Shown here: in pieces, positions 49,518 through 63,667 of the stretch | Position numbering within the stretch: the first letter of the stretch is position 1 | How the letters are laid out: each line of letters begins with the position of its first letter | Source: Xanthobacter autotrophicus | GTDB lineage: Bacteria > Pseudomonadota > Alphaproteobacteria > Rhizobiales > Xanthobacteraceae | DNA length: 64,000 nucleotides | Direction of reading: 5' to 3' | NCBI RefSeq assembly: GCF_005871085.1 | Contig: NZ_VAUP01000038.1 | Span: forward strand, 1-64,000 | Translations under genes and position numbers: made by a program | The notes under the pieces: generated by a model | Told to the model about the DNA's origin: nothing | The model's database searches: none | Seen by the model: the letters and a program-made list of their open reading frames with translations, nothing else

Positions 49518-52500
49518 TCAGAACTTGTAGGACAGTGTGGCCTTGCCGCCGTTGTCGGTGGCGCCCGAGCCGAACTGGCCGGCATAGACGAGGCCGAGCG
49601 TCGCCTGCGGGGAGAGCTTGATGTCGAGGCCGGCTTCCACCACCGCCGCATCCTCGGCGATGGGCACGCCCGCCACCGTGTAGGCGTCGAACACCGCGAA
49701 GGCGTTGACGGAGGTAGGCGTGGTGTCGCCGAAGGCGTGCCGCCAGCCCAGCGTGCCCCGCGCCACCGCGGCCATGGAGCCGAGGTCGAAGGCGGCGGAG
49801 GCCCGAAGCCCCAGGGTGGTGAAGGTGACGCCGGTGCTCTCGCCGTCCACGGTCAGCGCCGCGATGCCGCCGGTCTCGGTGAAGCCCTGGGTGTCGAGAT
49901 TCACATAGGCGAGATTGGCGAAGGGCTCGAAGGCGACGCCGGCGGCGTTGATCCGCCAGCCCAGCTCGCCGAACACCTGCGCGGTGCCGGCCGTGTAATC
50001 GCCCGAGAGCTGGTCGAACAGGCCGGGGAAGGCGACGGTGCGGGTGCTGGACACATCCTGCCACGTATAAGCCGCGCCGGTGCGCAGGGAGAGCGCCCCC
50101 CAGGCGCTGCCGCCATAAAGGCCCACGTGGTAGTTGTCGCTGCTGCCGGAGGAGGCGCGGTCATCCACCGAGAATGACGTGCCACTGTAGCCGGCGAGGA
50201 CGCCGACGCGCCAGTCGCCCACCGGAGCGTCCGCCCCCACGAGCAGGCCGCCCGTGGAGCTGTCGAGGCTCGCCGCGTTGCCGTCGGTGTCGATGGAGCC
50301 CCAGGAGCCGAAGCCGGTGGCCCAGAACACGAGCCCGTCATGGTTCGGCGCCACCTTGGTGGGCACGCCCTTGACGTAGGCGAGGGCCGGCGCGCTCGCC
50401 GTGGCGACGGCGTCGGTGGCGGCGCGCAGGCGGTCGTTCATGGCGTTGCGCACGAAGCGGCTGTCCTCGATGAACACCGTCTTGGCGCTGGCATAGAGCT
50501 CGCCGGACAGCAGGTCGAAGGCGACGCGGGCGGCGGCGAAGCTCGCCTGGTTGCCCACCGCGAAGGAGAGCGCGCCGTCCGCCGGCAGCCGGTCGAGGGC
50601 GGCGGCGGTGTTGCGCTGGTTGAAGGTGAGGGCGGCGTCGGCGAACTGGGTGGTCTTCTCCACTTCCAGCGCCATGGTGGTGCCGTCGGAGACGAGGCCG
50701 AGGTCGTAGAACGGGGTCAGATAGGTGTCGCCGGTGAGGGCGAAGAGGCCGCTGATGCCGCCCGCGGCGGTGAGCACGGTGTATCGCGTCCCCACCAGGT
50801 AGGGGCCCGAGCCGGAGCGGTCCACGTCGAGCACGGCGCCGGTGGCGATGGTGGCCGCGCCGTCCACGACGGTCTTGTCCGCCGCGCCGGTGGAGGTGTT
50901 CAGCTCCACCGCATAGGTGGAGGTGGACGTGAAGCCGGCGTTGCCGCCCACCGAGAGGGTGCCGATGGAATTGCCCGGCGCCAGCGTGCCGGCCACCGTG
51001 AGGTTGCCGCCGATCTTGCCGTAGCCGCCCAGCGTGCCGGCGCTGTCCACCACCACGTTGCCGCCGAGCACGGTGCTGCCGCCGTCCGCGCCCACCAGCA
51101 GGGTGCCGCCATGGACGGTGGTGAGGCCCTGGAAGCCGGAATCGTCCCCGGTGAGGCGGGTGACGCCGGCATACACGTCGATGGCGCTGGTGGTGCCGGT
51201 GCTGGAGATGTTGGCGGCCAGCTCGTAGGGCGAGATGGCGGTATGGTTGAGGACGAGGGTTCCGGCGCCGTCGCCGAACGCGATGGAGCCCACCTGCAGC
51301 GTGCCCGCCGCGGCCGGTGCATCGGCCGCCGCCGCGCCGATGATGAGGGTGCCGGCGCTGCCCGCGGCGGTCGCGATATCAAGCGTTCCGGTACCGGTCG
51401 CGCCGACCTTCACCACGCCGCCGTCGGTGACGGTGAGGCTGCTGCCGCCGTCGATGTGGAGGCTGGAGCTGTTGCTCCAGATGGATCCGGCGCCCGAGAT
51501 GGTGGCGCTGCTGGCGAACCCGTCCGAGCCCAGATAGCCGTCGGTGTCGGAGACGCTGCCGCCATTGGTGACGTTCAGCGTGCCGGTGCCGTCGATGTGG
51601 AGGCTGGCGCTGTTGCTCCAGGTGGAACCGGTGCCCGAGATCGTGGCGGTACCGCCGAGCCCGTTCGTGCCCACATAGCCGTCCTGGGAGGAGACGCCGC
51701 CGCCGTCGGTGACGGTGAGCGTGCTGCCGCCGTCGATGTGGAGGCTGGCGCTGTTGCTCCAGGTGGAGCCGGTGCCCGAGACCGTGGCCGTTCCGGCGAT
51801 CCCGTTCGAGCCCAGATAGCCGTCCGTGTCGGAGACGCTGCCGCCATCGGTGACGTTCAGCGTGCCGGCTCCGAGATAGCCCACGTAAACCGTGTCGCTG
51901 GACAGGCTCGATCCGGTCCCGGTGATGGTTGCCGTGCCGCTGGCAGAGCCGCCGATATAGGTCGTCGGCGCGGAGGCGGTGGCGCCGTTCTCCACGTTCA
52001 GCGTGCCGGTGCCGAGGAAGCCCACGTACAGCACGGAGCTGCCGGTGATGGAGGATCCCGCCCCGGTGACGGTCGCGGTGCCGTCCTTGAAGCCGCCGAT
52101 GGTGGTGTTGATGGCGGAGACGGAGCCGCCGTCCTCCACGTTCAGCGTGCCGGTGCCGAGGAAGCCCACGTACAGCGTGGAGCCGCTGGAGAGGGAGGAT
52201 CCCGCGCCGGTGACCGTCGCGGCGCCGTCGGTGAAGCCGCCGATGAACACCACCGTCGCGGAGACGCTGGCGCCGTCCTCGATGTTCAGCGTGCCGGAGC
52301 CGAGAAAGCCCGAATACAGGACCGTGGAGGAGAGGGACGACCCGGTCCCGGTGACGGTCGCGGTGCCGGTGGCGAAGGCGCCCACCGAGACGGTCGGCGC
52401 GGAGACGGTGCCGCCGCCTTCCACCGTCAGGCTGCCTTCGTTCAGGAAACCGACCTCGAGCGGAACGGCCAGGTTCCAGTCGGGCGAAACGGCGGGGCTG

Positions 52501-52676
52501 GGGTTCACGTCGCCGGTGGTGGTGACGCTCTGCGCCCAGGCGGTGACTGGCACGACCATGCCGGCGGCCAGCACCGAGGCAGCACTGATTCGCGCTCCGG
52601 CCCGCAGGGCGCGCAACGTCATCGTGCCGCCGATGGCCTTGCGCCCGCGCAGCCGCTCCGTCTTCCCGTTGCCCAT
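49518..52676 (-). CDS. Type V autotransporter with repeat-rich passenger
   Basis: A 1052-residue surface protein. The N-terminus has an extended basic leader and a signal (ISAASVLAAGMVVPVTAWAQ). The passenger holds about eight repeats of about 47 residues (consensus around GTLNVTDGGSVSDT, GTATVTGTGSSLSS), then a PATR-like segment (VHGGTLLVGADGGSTVLGG, VAGTLAPGNSIGTLSVGG). The last 280 residues form the autotransporter barrel (FWATGFGSWGSIDTDGNAAS) ending in TLSYKF. It is probably an adhesin or biofilm protein. The ATG at 52676 is chosen for its G-rich upstream stretch; ATGs at 52694 and 52721 are possible. No protease motif was seen in the passenger. Confidence 0.9.
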   Translation of the reverse strand: MGNGKTERLRGRKAIGGTMTLRALRAGARISAASVLAAGMVVPVTAWAQSVTTTGDVNPSPAVSPDWNLAVPLEVGFLNEGSLTVEGGGTVSAPTVSVGAFATGTATVTGTGSSLSSTVLYSGFLGSGTLNIEDGASVSATVVFIGGFTDGAATVTGAGSSLSSGSTLYVGFLGTGTLNVEDGGSVSAINTTIGGFKDGTATVTGAGSSITGSSVLYVGFLGTGTLNVENGATASAPTTYIGGSASGTATITGTGSSLSSDTVYVGYLGAGTLNVTDGGSVSDTDGYLGSNGIAGTATVSGTGSTWSNSASLHIDGGSTLTVTDGGGVSSQDGYVGTNGLGGTATISGTGSTWSNSASLHIDGTGTLNVTNGGSVSDTDGYLGSDGFASSATISGAGSIWSNSSSLHIDGGSSLTVTDGGVVKVGATGTGTLDIATAAGSAGTLIIGAAAADAPAAAGTLQVGSIAFGDGAGTLVLNHTAISPYELAANISSTGTTSAIDVYAGVTRLTGDDSGFQGLTTVHGGTLLVGADGGSTVLGGNVVVDSAGTLGGYGKIGGNLTVAGTLAPGNSIGTLSVGGNAGFTSTSTYAVELNTSTGAADKTVVDGAATIATGAVLDVDRSGSGPYLVGTRYTVLTAAGGISGLFALTGDTYLTPFYDLGLVSDGTTMALEVEKTTQFADAALTFNQRNTAAALDRLPADGALSFAVGNQASFAAARVAFDLLSGELYASAKTVFIEDSRFVRNAMNDRLRAATDAVATASAPALAYVKGVPTKVAPNHDGLVFWATGFGSWGSIDTDGNAASLDSSTGGLLVGADAPVGDWRVGVLAGYSGTSFSVDDRASSGSSDNYHVGLYGGSAWGALSLRTGAAYTWQDVSSTRTVAFPGLFDQLSGDYTAGTAQVFGELGWRINAAGVAFEPFANLAYVNLDTQGFTETGGIAALTVDGESTGVTFTTLGLRASAAFDLGSMAAVARGTLGWRHAFGDTTPTSVNAFAVFDAYTVAGVPIAEDAAVVEAGLDIKLSPQATLGLVYAGQFGSGATDNGGKATLSYKF

Positions 52677-53117
52677 AAAGCCCCCAACGCCCATCCGAAC
52701 CCTGCCCAGGTTCTGCAACATCCGAACGTATATGCTGCGTCGCGGCGGGCCAATAGCCAGGGGCGGCCCGCAAGTTGAGCTTGGCCATTCCTGAATTGCG
52801 AAAGAGAGTTGCCGGCTGAGGGATGCGCATTCGACAGAATCGGGTTGTATCTCGGGCAGTTACGTCAGGACTCTCCTGGCAAACCACTGGATGAACCTCG
52901 TCGATCGCTTGGTATCATTGGAGCTTGGTCGCAGGTCGGGTGGTCGCGCGTAAGCAATGCTGCGCCGGCTCTACCCGCATTGCGTGCGTTAACGCCTGTG
53001 GAGTCTGTGCTGCCCCCGTGGGCGGCTGCTGGGGTCTCAGGCGGGGTGGGTGGTATTGTCGCAGGTGGGCGGTCCTGTCTTCTGACCCCGCGACAAGGAG
53101 CGCTCCCGCGCTCAGGA
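52677..53117. other. 441-bp region between the autotransporter and exonuclease genes
   Basis: Carries the autotransporter promoter (minus strand, near 52680-52800) and the downstream side of the exonuclease gene. The part around 52900-53050 is AT-richer than its surroundings and has no convincing gene on either strand; open frames here are continuations of frames antisense to the exonuclease gene. Confidence 0.45.
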
Positions 53118-55277
53118 TCAGTAGCGCAGGCGGGCGTAATAGGAGGTCTGCGCCGCGGCGCGGGCCTGCCCCAGGGTGAGGATGCCGCGTGCGCGCAGCA
53201 GCGGCAGCAGCTTCAGGAAGATCTCGGCGGTGGCCAGCGCGTCGCCCAGCGCGGTGTGGCGGCCGGAGACGGCGATGCCGAGGCGCGCCGCCATGGCTTC
53301 CAGGCCGTGGCTGTCCTCCCCCGGATGGACGATGGCGGCGAGCAGCAGGGTGTCGAGCACCGGCTGATCGAAGCGCACCCCGCTGGCGTTTTCCTTGAGG
53401 GTCAAAAAGCGCATGTCGAAGGCCACGTTGTGGCCCACGAGAACGGTGTCGGCGGCAAAGGCGTGGAAGGCGGGCAGCACCTGCGGGAGGGTGGGCTTGC
53501 CGCGCACCATCTCCGGCCGGATGCCGTGCACCGCGATGCCAGCCTCCGGAATGGAGCGCTGCGGGTCCACCAACTGGTCGAAGCATTCGCTGGCGAGCAG
53601 CCGGCCGTTGACGATGCGGGTGGCGCCGATCTGGAGGATTTCGTCGCCGCCGGCGGGATCAAGGCCGGTGGTCTCGGTGTCGAACACCGTATAGGCGATC
53701 TCGCTGAGCGCCCGCTCGTCGCTCTCACGGCTCTGCGCGCTCGCGGCGAACAGGTCGAAATCATAATAGGCCGGGCGGCTCTCGCCGGGGGCAGGCACTT
53801 GCGCCACCGTGCCGGCGGCCACCGGCAGCAGGAAGCGGAACAGCGCCCCCGAACCGTCGCGCGCATGCTCCAGCCACAGCTCGCCGCCGTGCCGCTCCAC
53901 CACGTCGCGCACCGTGAGGGGGGAGGGAGCGTCGGAGGTCTGCATGGGGCGGGTCTGCCAGCCTGCGAGGTCGAGGCCGGGCGCGGTGCCCTGGAACGCG
54001 AGGTCGAGATGCGCCCGCCCGCCCGCCGGCGCCAGGCGCAGGGCGAATCTGGGAGCGTCCAGCGCCTCGGCAAGGCGCGCGGCGAGGAAGGCGAGGGCCT
54101 GAATCAGGGCGAAGCTGTCCACGCTCAGCCAGAGGTCGGCGTCCACCGCAACCGTGTCCACCTCCTGCCCGGTCTCGGCGGTGATGCGCTGGGCGGCGGC
54201 TGCGGCAAGGTCGGCGCCCAGCATGTCCTGCAGCGGCCAGCGGGTCTTCATGTCGTGGGAGGCGTCGGCGGCGAGTGTCGTGAGGCGGTGGCTCATGACG
54301 CCCACCTCGTCGCGCACCACGGCCTGGAAGCGCTCCCGGTCGGCGGGTTCCAGATCCGGATAGTCCAGCATGTCGAGGGCGGCCTGCATGCTGGCGAAGG
54401 AGGCCCGGCTTGCCTCGGAGAGATCGAGCCAGCGGCGGTCCTGCCGCGAACGCGCCTCGTATTCGTCGGTGATGTCGTCCAGCAGCAGCACGAAGCCGGT
54501 GATGTCGCCCTTGTCGTCCGCCGCCGCCCGCACCGGGGCAAGCGACACCTGGATGAGGTGGCCAAGCGGCGTCGTGGTCACGAAGCGCGCCGAGGCCTGG
54601 GCGTCGCCGCGGGCGATGCGCCGGGCGATGCCTTCGCGGGCATGGTCGATGAGGGCGCGGTCGATGACCGCATGGATGGACCGGCCGAGGCCGATCAATT
54701 CAGCGCCCGCCACGCCCCCCGGCGCCTGCGACAGGGTGCGGAAGAGGGCGCGGGCGCGGGCGTTGTAGAGCAGGATCCGCCCTTCGAGATTGAGCACCAC
54801 CACCGATTGCTCCAGCTCCGCCATCAGGGCGGCGAGCTGGTCGCGTTGGAGCGCCACGTCGCGGCTGGCCTCGGCGATGAGGCGGGCCATGTCGTCCTGA
54901 AGGGCGCGGCGCTGGCCGGCGAGGGCGTTGATGGCCTCGCCAAGCGCACGCATCCCGGTACCGGCCTGGGGCGGCAGGGGCGGGGCAGCGGCATCGCCGG
55001 CCAGCACGCGGGTGGCATCGGCGAGGCGGGCCGGGGCTTCCCCATAGCGGGCATAAAGGCGAAAGGCGACGAAGCCGGCGCCGAGCGCGGCCAGGAACCA
55101 CCACAGCACCACCAGCATGCCATGGCTGTCGATCAGCGGCGCGAGGGTATCGGCGACTGCGGCGCGGTCGGCGGGGCCGAGCGCTGCAAACAGCAGGCCG
55201 GCGCCGAGGAGGAGCCACAGGCCAAGAAGTGCGCCCGGCGCGAGCACGACCAGCGCCAGACGCCGGTTGAAGTTCAT
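53118..55277 (-). CDS. Membrane PAS/kinase-like protein fused to a DnaQ-type 3'-5' exonuclease
   Basis: A 719-residue fusion. Two N-terminal helices (ALLGLWLLLGAGLLFAAL, GMLVVLWWFLAALGAGFVAF) are followed by a linker, a PAS domain (about 150-280, ELEQSVVVLNLEGRILLYNA) and a kinase-like region (about 290-490, with RDEVGVMSHRLTTLAADASH and FLLPVAAG-type ending) that lacks clear N and G boxes. The DEDDh exonuclease has TVFDTETTGLDPAGGDEILQ (acids near 530 and 532), VGHNVAFDMRF and the RHTALGDALATAEIF motif with His near 671. All catalytic residues are present. It likely degrades DNA or RNA ends near the membrane. Its ATG overlaps the receiver gene stop (ATGA). Pseudomonas has a nuclease gene next to actP, but I recall it as a smaller protein. 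Confidence 0.88.
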   Translation of the reverse strand: MNFNRRLALVVLAPGALLGLWLLLGAGLLFAALGPADRAAVADTLAPLIDSHGMLVVLWWFLAALGAGFVAFRLYARYGEAPARLADATRVLAGDAAAPPLPPQAGTGMRALGEAINALAGQRRALQDDMARLIAEASRDVALQRDQLAALMAELEQSVVVLNLEGRILLYNARARALFRTLSQAPGGVAGAELIGLGRSIHAVIDRALIDHAREGIARRIARGDAQASARFVTTTPLGHLIQVSLAPVRAAADDKGDITGFVLLLDDITDEYEARSRQDRRWLDLSEASRASFASMQAALDMLDYPDLEPADRERFQAVVRDEVGVMSHRLTTLAADASHDMKTRWPLQDMLGADLAAAAAQRITAETGQEVDTVAVDADLWLSVDSFALIQALAFLAARLAEALDAPRFALRLAPAGGRAHLDLAFQGTAPGLDLAGWQTRPMQTSDAPSPLTVRDVVERHGGELWLEHARDGSGALFRFLLPVAAGTVAQVPAPGESRPAYYDFDLFAASAQSRESDERALSEIAYTVFDTETTGLDPAGGDEILQIGATRIVNGRLLASECFDQLVDPQRSIPEAGIAVHGIRPEMVRGKPTLPQVLPAFHAFAADTVLVGHNVAFDMRFLTLKENASGVRFDQPVLDTLLLAAIVHPGEDSHGLEAMAARLGIAVSGRHTALGDALATAEIFLKLLPLLRARGILTLGQARAAAQTSYYARLRY

Positions 55278-55741
55278 GCCGGCATGTCCTTCGGCAGCTC
55301 GCCCGCCCCGGCGCTGCCGGTCGCCAGTGCCCGGGCTGCGGTGTCCTTCGCCAGCATGTCCTTCACCTGCTGCACCAGGTCGCGGGTGGAGAAGGGCTTG
55401 GTGACATAGGCATCCGCCCCGGCGCCGACGCCGCGCGCCATGTCGGTCTCGCGGCCCTTGGCGGTGAGCATGACGATGCAGGTGGAGCGCACGTCGGCAT
55501 CGGCCCGCACCGCCTCGCACACGTCGAAGCCGGACATGCCGGGCATGGTGGCGTCCAGCAGGACGAGGCGAGGACGCTCGCGGCGGATGGCCTCCAGCGC
55601 CGCGCGCCCGTCACGGGCCACCAGCACCTCGAAGCCCTCGCGCTTCATCATGAATTCCAGCGACACGACGATGTTGGGCTCGTCGTCGGCGATCAGCACC
55701 TTGGCGGCGCAGGCCTTGGCCGGGGCCAATTCGGGAATCAT
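55274..55741 (-). CDS. Receiver-only response regulator
   Basis: A 155-residue protein with one receiver domain: acids in VLIADDEPNIV, phospho-acceptor Asp in LVLLDATMPGMSG, Thr in VMLTAKGRE, Lys in YVTKPFSTRD. No DNA-binding domain follows; the last 30 residues are Ala/Gly-rich. CrbR, the regulator normally paired with CrbS, carries a LuxR-type HTH, which is absent here. It overlaps both neighbours by ATGA: the kinase upstream and the exonuclease downstream. The output may therefore be protein-protein, possibly to the exonuclease. Confidence 0.93.
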   Translation of the reverse strand: MIPELAPAKACAAKVLIADDEPNIVVSLEFMMKREGFEVLVARDGRAALEAIRRERPRLVLLDATMPGMSGFDVCEAVRADADVRSTCIVMLTAKGRETDMARGVGAGADAYVTKPFSTRDLVQQVKDMLAKDTAARALATGSAGAGELPKDMPA

Positions 55742-58638
55742 GGCGTTTCCTCCCTCGTGTTGCCGCCGGCCAGGGCTTCCACCTTGCCTGCGGGTTCGGA
55801 TGCGGCAGGGGCAAGCCCTTCCGCACCGGCATCTGGCTGGAAGGGCAGTCGGAACGCGAAACACGCGCCGCTGCCGTCTTGGTTCTCCAGCCACATCCTG
55901 CCGCCGAAATGATCCACGATCCGGCGGCTGATCGGAAGCCCCAGCCCGGTGCCGGGGGGGCGGGTCAGGGCGTCGCCGCCCTGACGGAACTTCTCGAATA
56001 TGGTGTCGCGCTCGCCCTCGGGCACCCCCGGCCCGTTGTCTTTCACCCGAACGACGAGGCCGTCGCCCTCCACATGAAGGCTGACGTGGACACGCCCGCC
56101 CTCGGCCGGGACGAACTTGACCGCATTGGAGATGAGGTTCAGCACCACCTGCGTCAGCCGGTCGGGGTCGGCGCGCAGCAGTGGCACCGCGTCGGGCGCC
56201 TCGAACGTGATCTGCGCGCCCCGGCTGCGCGCCAGCTCGGTGGTGGCGGTGACGGCGTCGCGGACGAGGCGGCGCAGGTCCACGTCGGCATTGTGCCATT
56301 CGCCATGACCGGATTCGAGCTTGGCCATGTCCAGCACCTGGTTGACGAGCCGGCCCAGCCGCTCGCTCTCGCCCACGATGATGGTGAGGAATTCCTGGCG
56401 CTGGGGCGCCTCCATGTCGGGGGCGTCCAGCATCAGCTCGGACAAAGCGCGGATGGCGGTGAGCGGCGTGCGCAATTCGTGGGTGACGGAGGAGACGAAA
56501 TCGTCCTTCAGCTCGTCGAGGGTGCGCAACTGCGCGTTGGCGGCGGACAATTCGGCCGAGGCGATCTCCAGCGAGCGGGATTTTTCCTCCAGCGCCAGCG
56601 CGTAGACCCGCAATTGCGAGGCCTCGTTCAGGATCTCCATGACATCGGCGGGGCTGAGCGGCTCCTCCTCCGCCACCGCCGCCACCAGCACCCGCGCCGA
56701 GGCGCTGCCCACCGCGCCGGCAAGGCGCCGCTCCACCTTGTCCACGAGGCGGGCGTCGGCGGTGAGGTCGGTTCCCACGGCGACGCCGCTCTCGTGGGAA
56801 TGCTCTTCGAAGATCTGGCGCGCGGCGTCGGGGCCGAGCAGGCGGCTCGCCAGCGCCATCAGGTCGGCGGGGCGCGCGCGGCCGCGCCAGAACACCGGGT
56901 CGGCGGCGCCTGCGGTTGCCGTGGCATGGCCGCGGGCGAACACGTCCACGAACAGCAGCGCCTGGCTTGCCTCCCGCCCCGAGGGCGCGCGCCACAGGGA
57001 CAGGCCCACATAGAGCGCGACGTTGACGGTGAGGCTCCAGAACAGGGAGTGGGAGAGGTTGTCGAGACCCTGAAGGCCGAACAGGCGCTCCGGGGCGAGG
57101 GCGGTGATGCCGAACGGGCCGTGGGTGAGGAAGCCGTCGTCGATCCATCCCGATTTCGCCACCGAGGGCAGCATCAGGGTGTAGGCCCACACCACAAAGC
57201 CGCCCAACAAGCCCCCGAGCGCCCCGGCGCGGGTGGCCTCGCGCCAGTACATGCCGCCGAACAGGGCCGGTGCGAACTGGGCCACGGCGGCAAAGCTGAT
57301 GAGGCCGATGGAGACCAGTGCATAGGCCTCCCCCGCCACCTGGAAATAGAGATAGCCGAGCAGCAGGATGGCGAGGATGGCGGCGCGGCGGATGTTGAGG
57401 ATGAGCGCCGTCAGGTCGCCGCCGGCCCGCGCATTGTCCTGTCGTGACGCGTTTTCTTCACGCGAACCGGTTTCCACTTCGCTTGAAAACGCTTTGCGAC
57501 CCTGGCGCCGCAGCAGGGCAGGCATGACGAGATCGTTGCAGACCATGGTGGAGACGGCGATGGTCTCCACGATCAGCATGCCGGTGGCGGCCGAGAGCCC
57601 GCCCACATAGGCGAACAGCGCCAGCCCGGTGGCCCCGTTGGCCAGCGGCAGGGACAGCACGAAGGTCTCCGGGTCCGCGCCATTCGGGCCGAGCAACAGC
57701 AGGCCGCCCAGCGCCAGCGGCAGCACGAAGATGTTGATGACGAGGAGATAGGCCGGAAACACCCAGGCGGCGCGCTTCAGGTGCCGCTCGTTCACGCACT
57801 CCACCACCATCATCTGGAACTGGCGCGGCAACAGCAGCACCGACAGCATGGAGAGCAGCGTCAGCGTGAACCACTGGGCATAGCCGAAGGCGCCGGCCCC
57901 GCCCGTGCCGCCGAGGCGCAGCAGGGAGGCCATCTCCGGCACCGCCTTGGCCCGCGCCCAGATGTCGGCCATGCCGTCGAACAGGCCATAGGTGACGAAC
58001 ACGCCCACCGCGAGGAAAGCCACCAGCTTGACCAGGGATTCGAACGCCACCGCCGCCACCATGCCCTCGTGACGCTCGGCGCTGTCGAGGTGGCGGGCGC
58101 CGAACAGGATGGTGAACAGGGCAAGGGCCAGCGCCACCAGCAGAGTGCCGTCCTGCCACCAGGCCGGGCTCGGCCCGCCGCCGGCCGCCCCGGAAGCGGT
58201 GAGCAGCAGGTAGCCCGAGGACACGGCCTTCAGCTGGAGCGCGATGTAGGGCACGATGCCCACCACGGTGATGAGGGTGACCAGAGCCGCCACCAGCGGG
58301 CTCTTGCCGTAGCGGCTGGCGATGAAATCGGCGATGGAGGTGATGCGATAGGTGTGGGCGATGCGGATCATCTTGCGCACCACGATCCATGCCAGAAGCA
58401 TAGCCAGCATGGGCCCGAGATAGATGGGCAGGAACCACACGCCGGTGGCGGCGGCGCGCCCGACGCTGCCGAAATAGGTCCAGGCGGTGCAGTAGACCGC
58501 CAGCGACAGGGCATAGATCCAGGCGTTGCCGATGATCGAGCGGCCTTCCCGCGCGCGCCGGTCGGCGAAGGCGGCGACGGCGAACAGGAGCGCGAGGTAG
58601 AAAACCGCCGCGCCCACCACCACGGGCGCGGAGATCAT
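55738..58638 (-). CDS. Symporter-histidine kinase (SSS/PutP-type, CrbS/CbrA-like)
   Basis: A 966-residue sensor made of a sodium/solute-symporter domain with about 13 helices (SIIGNAWIYALSLAVYCTAW and others) and a cytoplasmic histidine kinase. The kinase has the His box SSVTHELRTPLTAIRALSEL, N box LNLISNAVKF, VKDNGPGVPEGE and the G box GTGLGLPISRRIVDHFGG. CrbS-type kinases sense acetate-linked signals and activate acs and actP; CbrA binds histidine. The nearby actP favours a CrbS role. A 54-bp palindromic repeat is inserted in frame within the symporter region (57444-57497), adding about 18 residues. ATGA overlaps join it to the genes on both sides. Confidence 0.93.
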   Translation of the reverse strand: MISAPVVVGAAVFYLALLFAVAAFADRRAREGRSIIGNAWIYALSLAVYCTAWTYFGSVGRAAATGVWFLPIYLGPMLAMLLAWIVVRKMIRIAHTYRITSIADFIASRYGKSPLVAALVTLITVVGIVPYIALQLKAVSSGYLLLTASGAAGGGPSPAWWQDGTLLVALALALFTILFGARHLDSAERHEGMVAAVAFESLVKLVAFLAVGVFVTYGLFDGMADIWARAKAVPEMASLLRLGGTGGAGAFGYAQWFTLTLLSMLSVLLLPRQFQMMVVECVNERHLKRAAWVFPAYLLVINIFVLPLALGGLLLLGPNGADPETFVLSLPLANGATGLALFAYVGGLSAATGMLIVETIAVSTMVCNDLVMPALLRRQGRKAFSSEVETGSREENASRQDNARAGGDLTALILNIRRAAILAILLLGYLYFQVAGEAYALVSIGLISFAAVAQFAPALFGGMYWREATRAGALGGLLGGFVVWAYTLMLPSVAKSGWIDDGFLTHGPFGITALAPERLFGLQGLDNLSHSLFWSLTVNVALYVGLSLWRAPSGREASQALLFVDVFARGHATATAGAADPVFWRGRARPADLMALASRLLGPDAARQIFEEHSHESGVAVGTDLTADARLVDKVERRLAGAVGSASARVLVAAVAEEEPLSPADVMEILNEASQLRVYALALEEKSRSLEIASAELSAANAQLRTLDELKDDFVSSVTHELRTPLTAIRALSELMLDAPDMEAPQRQEFLTIIVGESERLGRLVNQVLDMAKLESGHGEWHNADVDLRRLVRDAVTATTELARSRGAQITFEAPDAVPLLRADPDRLTQVVLNLISNAVKFVPAEGGRVHVSLHVEGDGLVVRVKDNGPGVPEGERDTIFEKFRQGGDALTRPPGTGLGLPISRRIVDHFGGRMWLENQDGSGACFAFRLPFQPDAGAEGLAPAASEPAGKVEALAGGNTREETP
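57444..57497. repeat. Palindromic repeat inside the kinase coding sequence
   Basis: GCGTTTTC and GAAAACGC flank a 28-bp centre that is itself near-palindromic. On the minus strand it reads AGCGTTTTCAAGCGAAGTGG and so on, matching 33834-33887 between frcB and frcC. It preserves the reading frame and encodes AFSSEVETGSREENAS, a polar loop between membrane helices. Confidence 0.85.
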
Positions 58639-58985
58639 GGCGCCTCCGCTGGAGGCTGCTGCACGCCGTCTCGCGGCGGCAGGATCGGTGGCCAGATTTG
58701 AGGGGTGACCTTCGGCCGGCGCTCGCTGGCCACCGCGAGGGCGGCGATCAGCGCCGCCCAGATGGCGAACAGGGCCACCGGCAAGAGCGGCAGGCCGAAC
58801 ACGGTTGCCTCCGCGTCCCACACCATGAGCAGCGGGAAATTGAAGGCCAGCACGCCGGTGGCGAACAGGGCCAGCAGGATCTGCGGGCGCGGCCCACGCT
58901 CGGACGGGGCATGCGCCTGCGCCGCCGCCGGAACGGCGGGGCGGGGCGGGGCGGGATCCCCGCCGGTCTGGTCACCCGCGCTCAT
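58635..58985 (-). CDS. Small two-helix membrane protein of the acetate block
   Basis: A 116-residue protein with a Pro-rich N-terminal region, two hydrophobic helices (LLALFATGVLAFNFPLLMVW, LPLLPVALFAIWAALIAALA) and a short Pro-rich tail. The layout resembles the small helper proteins that accompany SSS symporters (DUF485/DUF4212/YhdT-like), which pair with the symporter subunit; here the following gene is a symporter-kinase. The ATG at 58985 overlaps the stop of the CBS/DUF294 gene, and its stop overlaps the kinase start, both as ATGA. The helper role is inferred from layout and position. Confidence 0.78.
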   Translation of the reverse strand: MSAGDQTGGDPAPPRPAVPAAAQAHAPSERGPRPQILLALFATGVLAFNFPLLMVWDAEATVFGLPLLPVALFAIWAALIAALAVASERRPKVTPQIWPPILPPRDGVQQPPAEAP

Positions 58986-60445
58986 AGGGCGTCGAACCGG
59001 TAGTGCCGGGACAGCCATTGCTTGAAGCCCCGCACGATGGCGAGGGCCTCCTTCAGAGCCTGGCGTTCCAGGGTGCCGAGATCGGTGAGGCGGATGGCGT
59101 TGCCGGGGGCGCGGCCGGCTGCGATCTGGCGCAGATTATTGGCGAGCTTCAGCGAGATGAGGAAGCGCAGCGCGTCGGTGAGGTCGCGGGCGAAGCTTGC
59201 CTCCATATGGCCGGTGGCCACCAGCGCCTGGAGCCGGTCGGCGGTGCCGAGCGCGCCGACCCGGTGTTCCAGCGCCAGCGCCCGCACCCCATGCACCAGA
59301 GGGAAGATGCCGAGCTTCTTGATGTCGATTTCCGCCGCCGCCCGCCCGGTGAGGCCCGGCAGCCTCGTCCACCAGCCGCCACCCTCGCCGAAGCGCTCCA
59401 CCGCCTGGGCGAAGCGGGCGAAATAGCCGGCGTCGTTCATCATCAGGAAGTCCACATGGTCCCGCGCCGCCTTCAACAGCGCGGCGTCCCCCGCCACCGG
59501 AGCGGCATCGAGGAAGATGGCGAGATTCATGGGCCCGTCCCGGTCGCCGCCGTGGATCCACTGCCGGAGCGTCTCCTTGAAGGCCGACACATTCTGGCAC
59601 CACAGGGGCTGGCTCAGCATGATGCCGCCGGGGCAGGGCGGATAGCCGAAATCGATCAGCGCCGCGGTGAAGCGGGCGGTGATGTCGTCGAGGCCGTCGC
59701 AGGTGAAGCCGTCGGCCAGCAGCAGGGCATTGTCCTGGTCGGTCTTGATGATCTGCTCGCCGCGCCCCTCCGAGCCCATCACCACGAGGCAGGAGTTGGC
59801 GCGCAGGTCCTCCGGGGCCAGCATCTCCCACAGGCGGCGGAACACCTGCCGGTTCAGTTCGCCCACCAGCGCCGCGATGACTTCCACCCGCACCCCGTCC
59901 GCATCGAGCACGCCGACGAGGCTGTCGATCTGCCGCGCGGCGGCCTTCAGTTCTTCAAGGCTGGTGGCCTGCTCGGCCTCCAAAGCGATGAGGTGGGAGT
60001 GGTTGGCCACGAAGGCCATGAGATCGAGCTGGCCCAGCACGCCGACGATGCCGGCCTCGTCCGTGCCCTCGCGCACCACCACCCGGTGGATGCGGTGGCG
60101 CAGCATGAGGATGAGGGCCTCGAACAGCTCGGCGTCGGGGCGCACCGAACAGGGGTCGAAGGTCGCCACCGCCCGCACCGGCAGGCGGGCGGGGGGCGTC
60201 TCGCCCAGCAGGGCGTCGCGCAGGTCGGTGGTGGTGAAGATGCCGATGCGGCCGCCGTCGCGCACCAGGGCCTCGCTGAGCCCACGCTCGGACAGGGCAC
60301 GGCACAGGCTGACGAGGTCCATGGACCCGTCCACGTAGAACGGCTTGCGCAGGAACACGTCGCGCACCCGCGAGGTCATCAGCGAGACGAACTCGCGGCG
60401 CTCGCGGCTGGTATTGACGAGAGGCGAGCCTGTTTCATCGGTCAT
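58982..60445 (-). CDS. CBS-domain protein with DUF294 nucleotidyltransferase-like region
   Basis: A 487-residue cytoplasmic protein. Two CBS repeats (about residues 25-160) are followed by a nucleotidyltransferase-like domain (DUF294) with VVMGSEGRGEQIIKTDQDNA, the GSxxRxEx...D catalytic pattern of GlnD-type enzymes, and the DUF294_C helical domain (about 330-487). Such proteins are regularly encoded beside actP/yjcH and a DnaQ exonuclease, for example in Pseudomonas. CBS pairs commonly bind adenine nucleotides, so the protein may report energy charge. Its target is unknown. It heads the five-gene overlapping block. Confidence 0.92.
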   Translation of the reverse strand: MTDETGSPLVNTSRERREFVSLMTSRVRDVFLRKPFYVDGSMDLVSLCRALSERGLSEALVRDGGRIGIFTTTDLRDALLGETPPARLPVRAVATFDPCSVRPDAELFEALILMLRHRIHRVVVREGTDEAGIVGVLGQLDLMAFVANHSHLIALEAEQATSLEELKAAARQIDSLVGVLDADGVRVEVIAALVGELNRQVFRRLWEMLAPEDLRANSCLVVMGSEGRGEQIIKTDQDNALLLADGFTCDGLDDITARFTAALIDFGYPPCPGGIMLSQPLWCQNVSAFKETLRQWIHGGDRDGPMNLAIFLDAAPVAGDAALLKAARDHVDFLMMNDAGYFARFAQAVERFGEGGGWWTRLPGLTGRAAAEIDIKKLGIFPLVHGVRALALEHRVGALGTADRLQALVATGHMEASFARDLTDALRFLISLKLANNLRQIAAGRAPGNAIRLTDLGTLERQALKEALAIVRGFKQWLSRHYRFDAL

Positions 60446-60551
60446 GGATGAAAGCCCCCGCGGTGCCTGGCTAGAGCGCGATCCGAGCAGATGGAATGAA
60501 TTTGTCCGGTGAATCGCGCACCAAATTCAAGGAACCAAATTCAAGGAAGAA

Positions 60552-60594
60552 GCATGTGCCGATCGGAGCGCGGCGCAATCTGGCCGGCGCATGC
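60552..60594. repeat. Copy 3 of the GCAYGYRCCGAYC repeat family
   Basis: Begins GCATGTGCCGATCGGAG and ends GGCCGGCGCATGC. It shares order, length and the central GCGCAATCTG with the copy at 40772-40815. Confidence 0.7.
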
Positions 60595-60792
60595 CCTGAA
60601 GCCGTCCCGGCGCCGTACGGCCGGGGCCGGCGGCGTCAATGCCGAAGCCCGCCCGGTGTCGGGCGGGTTGGGGGCGCAGGAGCGTCCCGGGAGAGCGGCA
60701 GGCCGCTCTCGTGGTTCTTGGGCGGGAAACGGACGCGCCGGTGCGGTCGGATGGCCCGACCGCCTCCAGCTGCCGGAGCGAGGACACCTTGT

Positions 60793-60816
60793 CCCCGGGC
60801 CGTGTCGGCCCGGGGG
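60793..60816. terminator. Hairpin downstream of actP
   Basis: CCCCGGGCCG and CGGCCCGGGG pair around a TGT loop, about 75 bp after the actP stop on the minus strand. A T-tract (ATTTTG) follows on the plus strand only. Confidence 0.55.
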
Positions 60817-60890
60817 ATTTTGATCCGGCTGTCCTCGTCTTTATGCCGGGCCGGAGGTGATCCGGCCACGGCATCAGGAGAGCCGTGAGG

Positions 60891-62627
60891 TCAGTGACCC
60901 GAGGCTTCCGAGGCTCCGATGCCGGTTTCGGAGCGCACCTGCTGCGCCGGGAAGCCGGCCCGGTCGATCTTCGCCCGCGGGCTGTTGTCGAGGATCGAGA
61001 ACAGCCAGATGCCGACGAAGCCGAACGTCATGGAGAACAGCGCCGGCGAGGTGTAGGGGAACGGTGCCGAGCCAACCGGGTTGCCCAGGGTAGCTTCCCA
61101 CACCGACGGCGACAGGATGGTGAGGATCACCGAGGAGGCGAGCCCGAGGAAGCCGCCGATCACCGCGCCGCGGGTGGTGCAATCCTTCCACAGCACCGAC
61201 ATGAACAGCACCGGGAAGTTGGCCGAGGCCGCCACCGCGAAGGCCAGGGACACCATGAAGGCGATGTTCTGCTTCTCGAAGGCGATGCCCAGCAGCACCG
61301 CCAGGATGCCGAGGCAGATGGTGGTGATGCGCGAGACCTTGAGTTCCGCCGCGCTGTCGGCCTTACCCTTCTTCAGCACCGTGGAATAGAGGTCGTGCGA
61401 CACCGCCGAGGCGCCCGAGAGCGTCAGGCCCGCCACCACCGCGAGGATGGTCGCGAACGCCACCGCCGAGATGAAGCCGAGGAAGATGTTGCCGCCGACC
61501 GCCTGGGCCAGATGCACCGCCGCCATGTTGTTGCCGCCCACCAGAGCGCCCTTGGCGTCGAGGAAGCCGGGATTGGTGAGGACGAAGGTGATGGCGCCGA
61601 AGCCGATGATGAAGGTGAGCAGGTAGAAGTAGCCGATCCACCCGGTGGCCCACATCACCGACTTGCGCGCTTCCTTGGCGCTGGGCACGGTGAAGAAGCG
61701 CATCAGGATATGGGGCAGGCCGGCGGTGCCGAACATGAGCGCCATGCCGAAGGAGATGGCCGAGATCGGATCCTTGATGAAGGTGCCCGGCCCCATGATG
61801 GACTGGCCAGCCGCTTCAGCGGCCGCCGGGGCAGCGCCCTTGGCGGTGGCGATCTGCGTCTTCACGGCGACCGCCGCCGCGAACATGTTCTCCGGGCTGA
61901 AGCCGTAGCGCCACAGCACCATGAGCGCCATGAAGGTGGCGCCGCCGAGCAGCAGGCAGGCCTTGATGATCTGCACCCAGGTGGTGGCGGTCATGCCGCC
62001 GAACAGCACGTAGACCATCATCAGCGCGCCGACGATCACCACCGCGATCCAGTAGTCGAGGCCGAACAGCAGCTTGATCAGCTGGCCGGCACCCACCATC
62101 TGGGCGATGAGATAGAAGGCCACCACCACCAGCGTGCCGGAGGCCGCGAACACGCGCACCGGGGTCTGGGCGAAGCGGAAGGCGGCCACGTCGGCGAAGG
62201 TGAACTTGCCGAGGTTGCGCAGGCGTTCCGCCATCAGGAAGGTGAGGATGGGCCAACCCACCAGGAAGCCGATGGAGTAGATGAGGCCGTCGAAGCCGGA
62301 GATCATCACCGCCGCGGAGATGCCGAGGAACGAAGCCGCGGACATGTAGTCGCCGGCGATGGCGAGGCCGTTCTGGAAGCCGGTGATGCCGCCGCCGGCG
62401 GTGTAGAAGTCGGCCGCCGACTTGGTCTTCGCCGCCGCCCATTTGGTGATGAAAAGGGTGCCGACCACGAAGATCGCGAACATGGCGATCGCGGTCCAGT
62501 TGGTGGCCTGTTTTTCCGAGGCGCCGATGGCCTCGGCAGCGAAGGCCGCCGCGGGAGCCAGCGCCAGCGCGCAAAGGGTCAGGCCCGCAAGGCGCGCCGC
62601 CTTGCCGATGAAAGCATGCGTCGACAT
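60891..62627 (-). CDS. actP: Cation/acetate symporter
   Basis: Imports acetate, glycolate and related short acids. Length is 578 residues with a cleavable or first hydrophobic segment ([20 protein letters not shown]) and about 13 helices. SSS family signatures are [53 protein letters not shown] and [17 protein letters not shown]. The ATG at 62627 overlaps the yjcH stop by one base (TGATG), so the two are translationally coupled as usual. A large open extension upstream is not real: it runs through yjcH in another frame. Confidence 0.96.
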
Positions 62628-62935
62628 CACTTGAGCACCTGCTGCTTGATCTTCTCGGAAAGGTCGTCGAACTCGCTGTTCGCGCGGCGGACATAGATGG
62701 CGGTGATGAGGATCGTGAAGACGATCACGCCGAAGCCGATGGGAATACCCCATGTCATCACGCCGGAGCCGATACGCGCGGCAAGAACGGCCTTGTCGAA
62801 GGCAATAAGCAGGATGAAGCCGTAGTAAACGACCAGCATCGCGAAAGTGAGAATCCAGCCGAAGCGCGAGCGCGTCGCCTTCAACTTCTGATAATTGGGG
62901 TCGGCCGCAATGCGCGCGGCCAGAGATGCGTCCAT
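62627..62935 (-). CDS. yjcH: DUF485 membrane protein, YjcH type
   Basis: A 102-residue inner-membrane protein with two helices ([33 protein letters not shown]) and the DUF485 pattern [20 protein letters not shown] at the N-terminus. It is the standard partner encoded before actP and is thought to assist the symporter. AGGGAGGGGC lies just before the ATG at 62935. First gene of the yjcH-actP unit; a long promoter region lies upstream. Confidence 0.93.
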
Positions 62936-63667
62936 CGGAGCCCCTCCCTTTGCGGTCCACGGCTGTTCCGCGGACCTGATTGTTATCGTGGGACGACGCA
63001 GGGCCGGAGCGGGCCACACGTCGCGCCTGCAATCTGGACCAGCCGCGCGGCGGACGCTAGTTGGGGAGATACCGTACTTTGGGCGATACTCCTGCGGCAG
63101 GCTCCCGCACCGCACACAGTGCTTTTGGGGCAAAGAATCGCTTCAGATCAGAAGTTTAGCGGTATTTTCGGTGTTTTGCAGTTGCGTTCGACCAGGTCCG
63201 GAGCGGCTTTTTCCAAAGCCGCCAGAATCTTATACTTTCGGGTGAAGCAACTCAACGCTCCGCCCTTCGTATTATGAGGATCAGCGCGATCTGTTCCGTG
63301 TGAGGTAGCGGGCGGAGGGGTGGCCGGCATTCCGGTGCTCCGGCAGGGGCGCTCTCGGCCCCAACGAATTCCATGTCCTGCCGGAGTCGCTCCGGTGGAC
63401 ACAGGCCGCGCGGGGCGCGCCATGGTGTGCGGTGCAGCACCGCCACCTTGCCGCCGCTCCCGGGGCTGCGGTGCTCTATTTCGGCATCCTCTGCCCCGTT
63501 CCCCCTCGACGTGGCGACGACACCCTTGCCCCCACCGTGCCCTCCGCCCGAAATTGGCAGGCGCCGAATCCGGCTACGGTGCGGCAGAGGGGCCGGGCGG
63601 GGCCCGGCCGCAGCATCAGAATTCCAGGCCCGGGCCGCGCCCCGCGCCGATCCATCGAGGACAGGTC
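62936..63667. other. 732-bp divergent regulatory region upstream of yjcH-actP
   Basis: Long region between yjcH (minus) and the hydroxyacid dehydrogenase gene (plus). The part at 63130-63290 is clearly AT-richer than the rest. GATAC occurs twice 17 bp apart (63068-63072 and 63085-63089). A hairpin GCGGCTTT-T-AAAGCCGC-like (GGCTTTTTCCAAAGCC, 63209-63224) is visible. Short open frames here lack protein-like composition, and I call none. Confidence 0.5.
63068..63089. promoter_or_regulatory. Candidate regulator site: spaced GATAC direct repeat
   Basis: GATAC at 63068-63072 and at 63085-63089, separated by CGTACTTTGGGC, lie 133-154 bp upstream of the yjcH start. Whether this is the site for an acetate-responsive regulator is unknown. 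Confidence 0.3.

Follow-up and report, generated by a model that had tools for sequence, protein, structure and literature searches.

The output of most two-component systems is a transcription factor, a second-messenger enzyme or a motility switch. Among described systems related to the present one, those of the CrbS/CrbR type control acetate genes, and the CBS protein Pflu5625 is reported to belong to the CrbR regulon (PMC5715377). In Pseudomonas putida, pp_0354 and pp_0353, which encode a CBS protein and an RNase_T exonuclease, are reported to form one operon targeted by MxtR/ErdR (PMC9927547), with ErdR binding to the pp_0354 promoter (PMC8402216, PMC9927547), and in P. aeruginosa PAO1 the CBS/exonuclease pair adjoins actP/yjcH (PMC9927547). 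According to that report, deletion of pp_0354 or pp_0353 had no effect on acetate, pp_0353 was needed for normal growth on pyruvate, and Henriquez et al. speculate that pp_0353 acts in mRNA turnover of central carbon genes (PMC9927547). Because these data are published, the link between an exonuclease and carboxylate signalling is already in print.

Here we analyzed a 64,000-nucleotide stretch of Xanthobacter autotrophicus DNA (contig NZ_VAUP01000038.1, positions 1 to 64,000), referred to below as the window. Its minus strand carries a block of five genes, encoding a CBS-DUF294 protein, a two-helix peptide, an SLC5-type sensor kinase, a stand-alone receiver and a PAS-exonuclease, with yjcH-actP upstream (Table 1). 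We judge this block to be real, conserved and little described, a case of SLC5/STAC two-component signalling whose apparent output is a nuclease. Beyond the original prediction, the analysis adds the predicted pseudokinase within the exonuclease, the CbrX-like place of the two-helix peptide, the range of the block outside the genus and the link between DUF294 and DnaQ. A search of the open PubMed Central literature, outside which most subscription papers lie, found no published kinase-receiver-pseudokinase-exonuclease system. An orphan receiver of Xanthomonas, considered as a related system, was rejected as unrelated (PMC7698356).

Conservation of the block within and beyond the genus

The original prediction held that these genes form one signalling unit in which acetate status controls the exonuclease; of this, the survey supports a real, conserved unit joining a sensor, a receiver, a CBS-nucleotidyltransferase and a nuclease. 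Within the genus, a full-length exonuclease was present in 13 of 14 genomes (G000-G013) and was split over two contigs in G008, while among the other 47 relatives searched a nearly full-length exonuclease was found in one (G057, from residue 72). All seven genes, yjcH and actP included, stood in the window's order in 8 of 11 genus stretches, of which L037 and L040 end at contig ends and L038 is the exception in order; the latter, from G007, has a single frame of 704 amino acids (aa) that combines exonuclease, CBS and DUF294 and lies close to an SSF symporter. The stretches from G008 (L057) and G005 (L058) are cut by contig ends, yet show the same neighbours.

Outside the genus, two nuclease-domain peptide patterns detected at least 555 relatives among at least 589 matched stretches. 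The best 80, hereafter the named loci, are enriched for close, full-length relatives; judging by their titles they are mostly from Betaproteobacteria (in the old sense) and Gammaproteobacteria, and include one from Spirochaetia and one Desulfobacteraceae metagenome-assembled genome. Neighbours were called by tblastn with the window's proteins, a procedure that may overlook neighbours whose sequence has diverged, most of all the short two-helix gene. Of the named loci, 76 extend at least 1 kb upstream of the exonuclease, and in 62 of these the receiver immediately precedes it. Where at least 4.5 kb was available on both sides (52 named loci), the receiver was found in 42, the receiver together with the SLC5 kinase in 39 and the kinase without the receiver in none, and the stretch also held a DUF294 gene in 36 and an ActP-like symporter in 38. 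Kinase, receiver and exonuclease followed one another in that order in 55 of the 80 named loci, and all seven genes kept the window's order in 7.

The exonuclease profile matched 41 of 299 genomes sampled evenly over the phylum, the window's own included (E ≤ 1e-60); 31 of these matches start before model position 160 and are nearly full length, and 10 start at position 300 or later. From these 41 we picked 20 loci by choice. The receiver adjoined the exonuclease in 17 of them, the window's order of all seven genes was found in 2, and 3 showed a permuted order, yjcH-actP-DUF294-receiver-exonuclease-kinase, in which a two-helix match precedes the kinase. That the members stay together while their order is reshuffled speaks for a working unit. 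Across the genus, the named loci and the phylum genomes, the five-gene order was neither rare and scattered nor devoid of co-occurrence; it is conserved beyond chance and kept over wide distances, in agreement with the proposed unit.

The exonuclease contains a degenerate histidine kinase

An AlphaFold2 model of the exonuclease, built from a 74-row alignment (mean predicted local distance difference test score 86, predicted template-modelling score 0.48), placed two membrane-type helices at the N-terminus, followed by a coiled coil, a PAS domain (about 155-268), a DHp-like hairpin (270-342, with helices at 270-304 and 311-342), a CA-like part (350-486) and the nuclease (529-716). In the overall layout the degenerate DHp/CA region spans about 270-490 and the DEDDh exonuclease about 525-719. 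Foldseek matched the middle of the model to histidine kinases and its end to PolC/DnaQ, and by sequence the closest solved relatives are PolC and the epsilon subunit. When profile hidden Markov models were compared, residues 270-505 matched the kinase domain encoded in the same operon (probability 99, E 6e-18), whereas the first 150 residues and the nuclease domain, taken as controls, gave E values of 0.12 and 0.14.

Among 111 aligned relatives, 4 rows lack the region of the phospho-His; in the remaining 107 the position is never His, being Glu in 82 and Asp in 10. The two N-box places (kinase N834 and N838) hold Asn in 0/109 and 1/109 sequences, the place of the G1-box Asp (kinase D867) holds Asp in none of the 109 and Trp, Phe or Tyr in 108, and the G2-box glycines align to a gap. 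Since the phospho-His and the ATP boxes are lost, the middle of the protein is, as judged from the alignment and the model, a degenerate histidine kinase (pseudokinase). The fused nuclease should be active, because its DEDDh residues (D533, E535, D621, H674 and D679) are invariant in 112 of 112 sequences (79 of 79 in another count). A role in defence was also considered and none is claimed: the PADLOC matches of the exonuclease were restricted to its DEDDh domain, and the receiver gave one weak match (2e-7).

Six long exonucleases (L120, L127 and L131, and L122, L124 and L128) stand without a receiver or kinase nearby, beside ActP/YjcH or another SSF symporter; in that of L124 the DHp-like region has decayed.

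A CbrA-like sensor kinase preceded by a two-helix peptide

The membrane part of the kinase matched the solved CbrA chain 10ed_A (E 5e-68; aligned residues 11-374 and 408-560). No Pfam SSF match was obtained for this part in the window's sequence, and 12 of 49 aligned members matched at E ≤ 1. Lysine K204 aligns with K196 of CbrA, the lysine of the Na2 site, and is invariant in all 49, as are H720, N834, N838, D867, G869, G896 and G898, so that the residues of HisKA and HATPase_c appear catalytically competent. Between the SLC5 and kinase parts, four helices predicted at 590-655 are a candidate STAC domain, and similarity to longer SLC5 kinases extends to about residue 679. By its sequence the sensor is a CbrA-like transceptor, probably of the SLC5/STAC kinase class. 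It has no Response_reg domain, and its receiver, which lacks an output domain, is a separate gene, unlike in the hybrid CrbS. The same genome encodes elsewhere (L149:8591-12091, G000:C32) a canonical hybrid SLC5-PAS-HK-REC kinase of 1166 aa, which makes the block a second, divergent system. No LuxR regulator was present among the nine frames scanned around this hybrid kinase.

The two-helix peptide gave no Pfam or NCBIfam match and no match to Protein Data Bank sequences at E ≤ 10; its two hydrophobic stretches were seen by eye only. Its gene overlaps the start of the SLC5 kinase gene by ATGA (58638-58635), as cbrX does before cbrA. CbrX is described as a two-helix peptide whose gene overlaps cbrA and which co-purifies with CbrA (PMC13022988); through the overlap it is reported to be translationally coupled to CbrA (PMC6591292), and it is described as dispensable for growth on histidine (PMC6591292, PMC13022988). 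Because position and overlap parallel cbrX-cbrA, a CbrX-like arrangement is by analogy the natural reading of this gene pair.

CBS-DUF294 proteins are linked to DnaQ-type exonucleases

In the block protein, CBS, DUF294 and DUF294_C all scored above their curated cut-offs, and the second DUF294 match of the genome is GlnE; DUF294_C has been grouped with GlnD/GlnE, according to the family description (PMC3710099). We surveyed 30 DUF294_C loci, mostly best-scoring matches, from 120 genomes of the phylum. A same-strand DnaQ-type frame lay downstream within the 1.5-kb flank in 20 of the 30, and in 8 more the coordinates put a long exonuclease no further than 0.9 kb away on that strand; the four of these eight that were fetched (L157, L160, L161 and L171) have a receiver between DUF294 and the long exonuclease. 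The remaining two are the window, where the exonuclease follows after three genes, and L205, which has one on the opposite strand at a distance of about 2.5 kb. In the control, a DnaQ-type frame was found near 0 of 30 GlnD genes, within a reach that is shorter because GlnD is longer. In all ten loci chosen for their long frames (L038 and L046-L054), exonuclease, CBS and DUF294 shared a single frame, which measures about 700-970 aa between stops. In Pseudomonas (G425, twice), Colwellia (G428) and Piscinibacter (G426), DUF294 was followed by a match to the nuclease domain alone, in addition to the long exonuclease. CBS-DUF294 proteins are therefore linked to DnaQ exonucleases beyond the block of the window, sometimes in one chain.

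The linkage, the fusions and the kinship with GlnE/GlnD suggest a reading in which the two enzymes are a nucleotidyl writer and eraser: the transferase would add nucleotides to a protein or an RNA end, the DEDDh enzyme, a cleaver of phosphodiesters, would remove them, and in this block a transporter-type sensor would hold the eraser under phosphorelay control via the pseudokinase. We consider this reading speculative and quite improbable. If it were true, the output of the two-component system would be reversible nucleotidylation, or editing of RNA ends, and not transcription.

Organization of the locus and its intergenic regions

The Pfam and NCBIfam matches comprised RNase_T and PAS_4 for the exonuclease, Response_reg, HisKA with HATPase_c, CBS with DUF294 and DUF294_C, ActP and DUF485.

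Table 1. Genes and intergenic gap of the exonuclease block (window coordinates)
Feature	Coordinates	Strand	Basis
yjcH-like DUF485 membrane protein	62627..62935	-	PF04341, E 7e-35
actP, SSF-family cation/acetate (monocarboxylate) symporter	60891..62627	-	NF006903 ActP, 950 bits (cut-off 750)
Gap between actP and the five-gene block, 445 bp	60446..60890	-	G+C-rich hairpin inside
CBS-CBS-DUF294-DUF294_C protein, GlnE/GlnD-like nucleotidyltransferase (predicted)	58982..60445	-	PF00571, PF03445, PF10335
Two-helix peptide, 116 aa, putative positional counterpart of CbrX	58635..58985	-	Overlap and position
SLC5(-STAC)-HisKA-HATPase transceptor kinase (predicted), 966 aa, without receiver domain	55738..58638	-	Domain matches, CbrA structure match
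Stand-alone receiver, 155 aa, phospho-Asp D63 and K115	55274..55741	-	PF00072
PAS-exonuclease, 719 aa	53118..55277	-	PAS_4 and RNase_T, AlphaFold2, Foldseek

Direct reading of the sequence located the four ATGA overlaps that link the five minus-strand genes exactly as had been noted (58985-58982, 58638-58635, 55741-55738 and 55277-55274). Among named loci with both genes close together, a four-base overlap (ATGA, GTGA or TTGA) joined receiver and exonuclease in 39 of 64, kinase and receiver in 24 of 55, and the two-helix gene and kinase in 3 of 44. A fixed stoichiometry, which had been deduced from the overlaps, does not follow from them, since they vary among relatives and are absent from many, and since the CbrX-CbrA overlap serves translational coupling.

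The genes yjcH and actP, which overlap by 1 nucleotide counting from the actP ATG, are on the same strand and upstream, as had been noted; to call them directly upstream is loose, since the 445-bp gap separates the actP stop from the DUF294 start. The corresponding distance was 49-147 bp in eight named loci where both genes lay close together (starts approximate). Inside the gap is a G+C-rich hairpin (60792-60816); it has no T-run on the window's minus strand, is by eye also present in 7 of 9 aligned genus relatives and may separate expression of yjcH-actP from that of the five-gene block. Upstream of yjcH, a block at 63052-63089 around AAGTACGGTAT...CCAACTAGCG is common, by eye, to 8 of 10 aligned genus sequences and is a candidate regulator site. 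An ACTU-like pattern, drawn by eye from three Pseudomonas sites printed in the CrbR report (PMC5715377), had 14 matches in the window with at most 2 mismatches, against 16.2 expected, which is chance level. A scan for sigma-70 promoters found 0 (0.6 expected), and a scan for terminators found 6 (4.7 expected).

Downstream of the block, a minus-strand frame of 1067 aa (49518-52721) is autotransporter-like by eye, with a repetitive passenger and a barrel-like C-terminus.

A proposed signalling chain and its alternatives

We propose that the SLC5-STAC kinase with its CbrX-like peptide would, by homology, sense a small carboxylate or carbon status and would phosphorylate the stand-alone receiver, a transfer with which the competent residues are compatible. 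The receiver would then bind the pseudokinase part of the membrane-anchored PAS-exonuclease, where the helical hairpin is kept and the phospho-His and ATP site are lost, and this binding, together with PAS input, would gate the DEDDh 3′-5′ exonuclease. The CBS-DUF294 nucleotidyltransferase might share a nucleotidylated or RNA substrate with the nuclease and report adenine-nucleotide status, and yjcH-actP would be the carboxylate-uptake arm of the same response. Taken as a whole, this explanation has in our estimate about an even chance of being correct. Acetate status, which the original prediction had named as the signal, is not supported as such; the published data from P. putida on the simpler CBS/exonuclease pair point to pyruvate, as the pp_0353 deletion affects growth on pyruvate and not on acetate.

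Docking of the receiver on the exonuclease, as far as the sequences can tell, appears likely. The phospho-Asp and the Lys are kept in 90 of 90 receivers paired with an exonuclease, and 89 of 89 exonucleases next to a receiver retain both R291 and E324, the DHp marks, versus 11 of 19 without such a neighbour (Fisher p 2e-7). Several observations weigh against the proposed chain. Those same 11 receiver-less exonucleases retain both marks, and once relatedness is accounted for the association is not significant: among independent pairs, 3-4 went the same way, none the opposite way and 4-5 showed no difference, an underpowered comparison (median p 0.125). Mutual information with average-product correction over 90 receiver/exonuclease pairs gave no clear enrichment at the DHp (0.9-1.3 fold), a result that neither supports nor excludes docking. 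The receiver was missing from 14 of the 76 named loci with upstream room, five loci with more than 4 kb upstream (L103, L105, L108, L126 and L130) have the receiver and no SLC5-kinase match, and L104, L129 and L132, with room on both sides, lack receiver, kinase, DUF294 and symporter alike. Of the phylum loci, 17 offer enough sequence to either side; the receiver was found in 14 of these and the kinase in 8, six having a receiver without a kinase match.

Part of this evidence could be read differently. The genes might be co-regulated and mechanistically independent, a CrbS-like pathway controlling carboxylate use and the exonuclease being another product of the regulon, active for instance in mRNA turnover; the binding of ErdR to the pp_0354 promoter, with pp_0353 in the same operon (PMC8402216, PMC9927547), and the canonical hybrid kinase elsewhere in the genome both fit such an account. 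However, the block receiver has no DNA-binding domain, the nuclease shares its chain with a kinase-derived module, and receiver and exonuclease remain neighbours across much of the survey, also in permuted operons, and we regard this account as rather unlikely. Pseudokinase precedents exist in RetS/GacS and DivL, and the pseudokinase might in the same manner pair with the transceptor kinase and tune its output, the receiver having its target elsewhere and the nuclease serving as a local effector or scaffold. The kinase-like part of the exonuclease resembles the neighbouring kinase, which is also the only histidine kinase among the three own-genome matches listed for the exonuclease query, and structures of DivL and RetS were among the Foldseek matches of the operon kinase. 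Against such a heteromer, adjacency of receiver and exonuclease is kept more often than proximity of kinase and exonuclease, both in the 52 named loci (42 versus 39) and in the 17 phylum loci (14 versus 8), and we consider it unlikely.

The block could also be a carbon-use gene island that moved between classes by horizontal transfer, its adjacency reflecting joint transfer only. In a quick tree of the PAS and nuclease columns (112 rows), the window's genus lies inside a mainly Burkholderiales clade and groups with G302, from another family of its class. In addition, G373 is nearly identical to Piscinibacter L072 and yet related to the window at the level of the phylum and not of the class, which makes transfer of the block between classes likely, as far as this tree, with several of its forks open, allows. 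Joint transfer alone would not be expected to yield a permuted order with the same genes, chains that unite exonuclease, CBS and DUF294, or the wider association of DUF294 with DnaQ, and as a full explanation of the block it is very improbable.

Comparison with known systems

If the chain from kinase to receiver to pseudokinase-exonuclease is correct, a conserved two-component system would end in a pseudokinase-exonuclease at the membrane, an output of a new kind, and some bacteria may control a nuclease with signalling of the sort that normally switches genes. It would also offer a reason for the presence of an exonuclease among carboxylate-uptake genes and for the slower growth on pyruvate upon pp_0353 deletion. 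The proposal yields a testable chain of kinase, receiver, pseudokinase and nuclease, and names DUF294, repeatedly found next to such nucleases, as a candidate partner enzyme.

By its description, pp_0354/pp_0353 resembles the block in having a CBS protein with an RNase_T exonuclease. Like GlnE/GlnD, the CBS-DUF294 protein has related DUF294 and DUF294_C domains; by contrast, it has CBS sensor domains, no second transferase or HD domain was found in it, and it is genetically linked to a DEDDh exonuclease. The exonuclease shares all five catalytic residues with DnaQ, PolC and DinG, but where those have a polymerase or helicase partner it has membrane-type helices, a PAS domain and a predicted pseudokinase. 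With CbrA/CbrX, CrbS/MxtR and RpuS, the block has in common a kinase joined to an SLC5 transporter domain. CrbS and RpuS of S. fredii are described as hybrids with LuxR-family regulators (PMC9100948) and CbrB as an AAA+ regulator (PMC13022988), whereas in the present block the sole in-operon partner of the kinase is a bare receiver, followed by the apparent pseudokinase-exonuclease.

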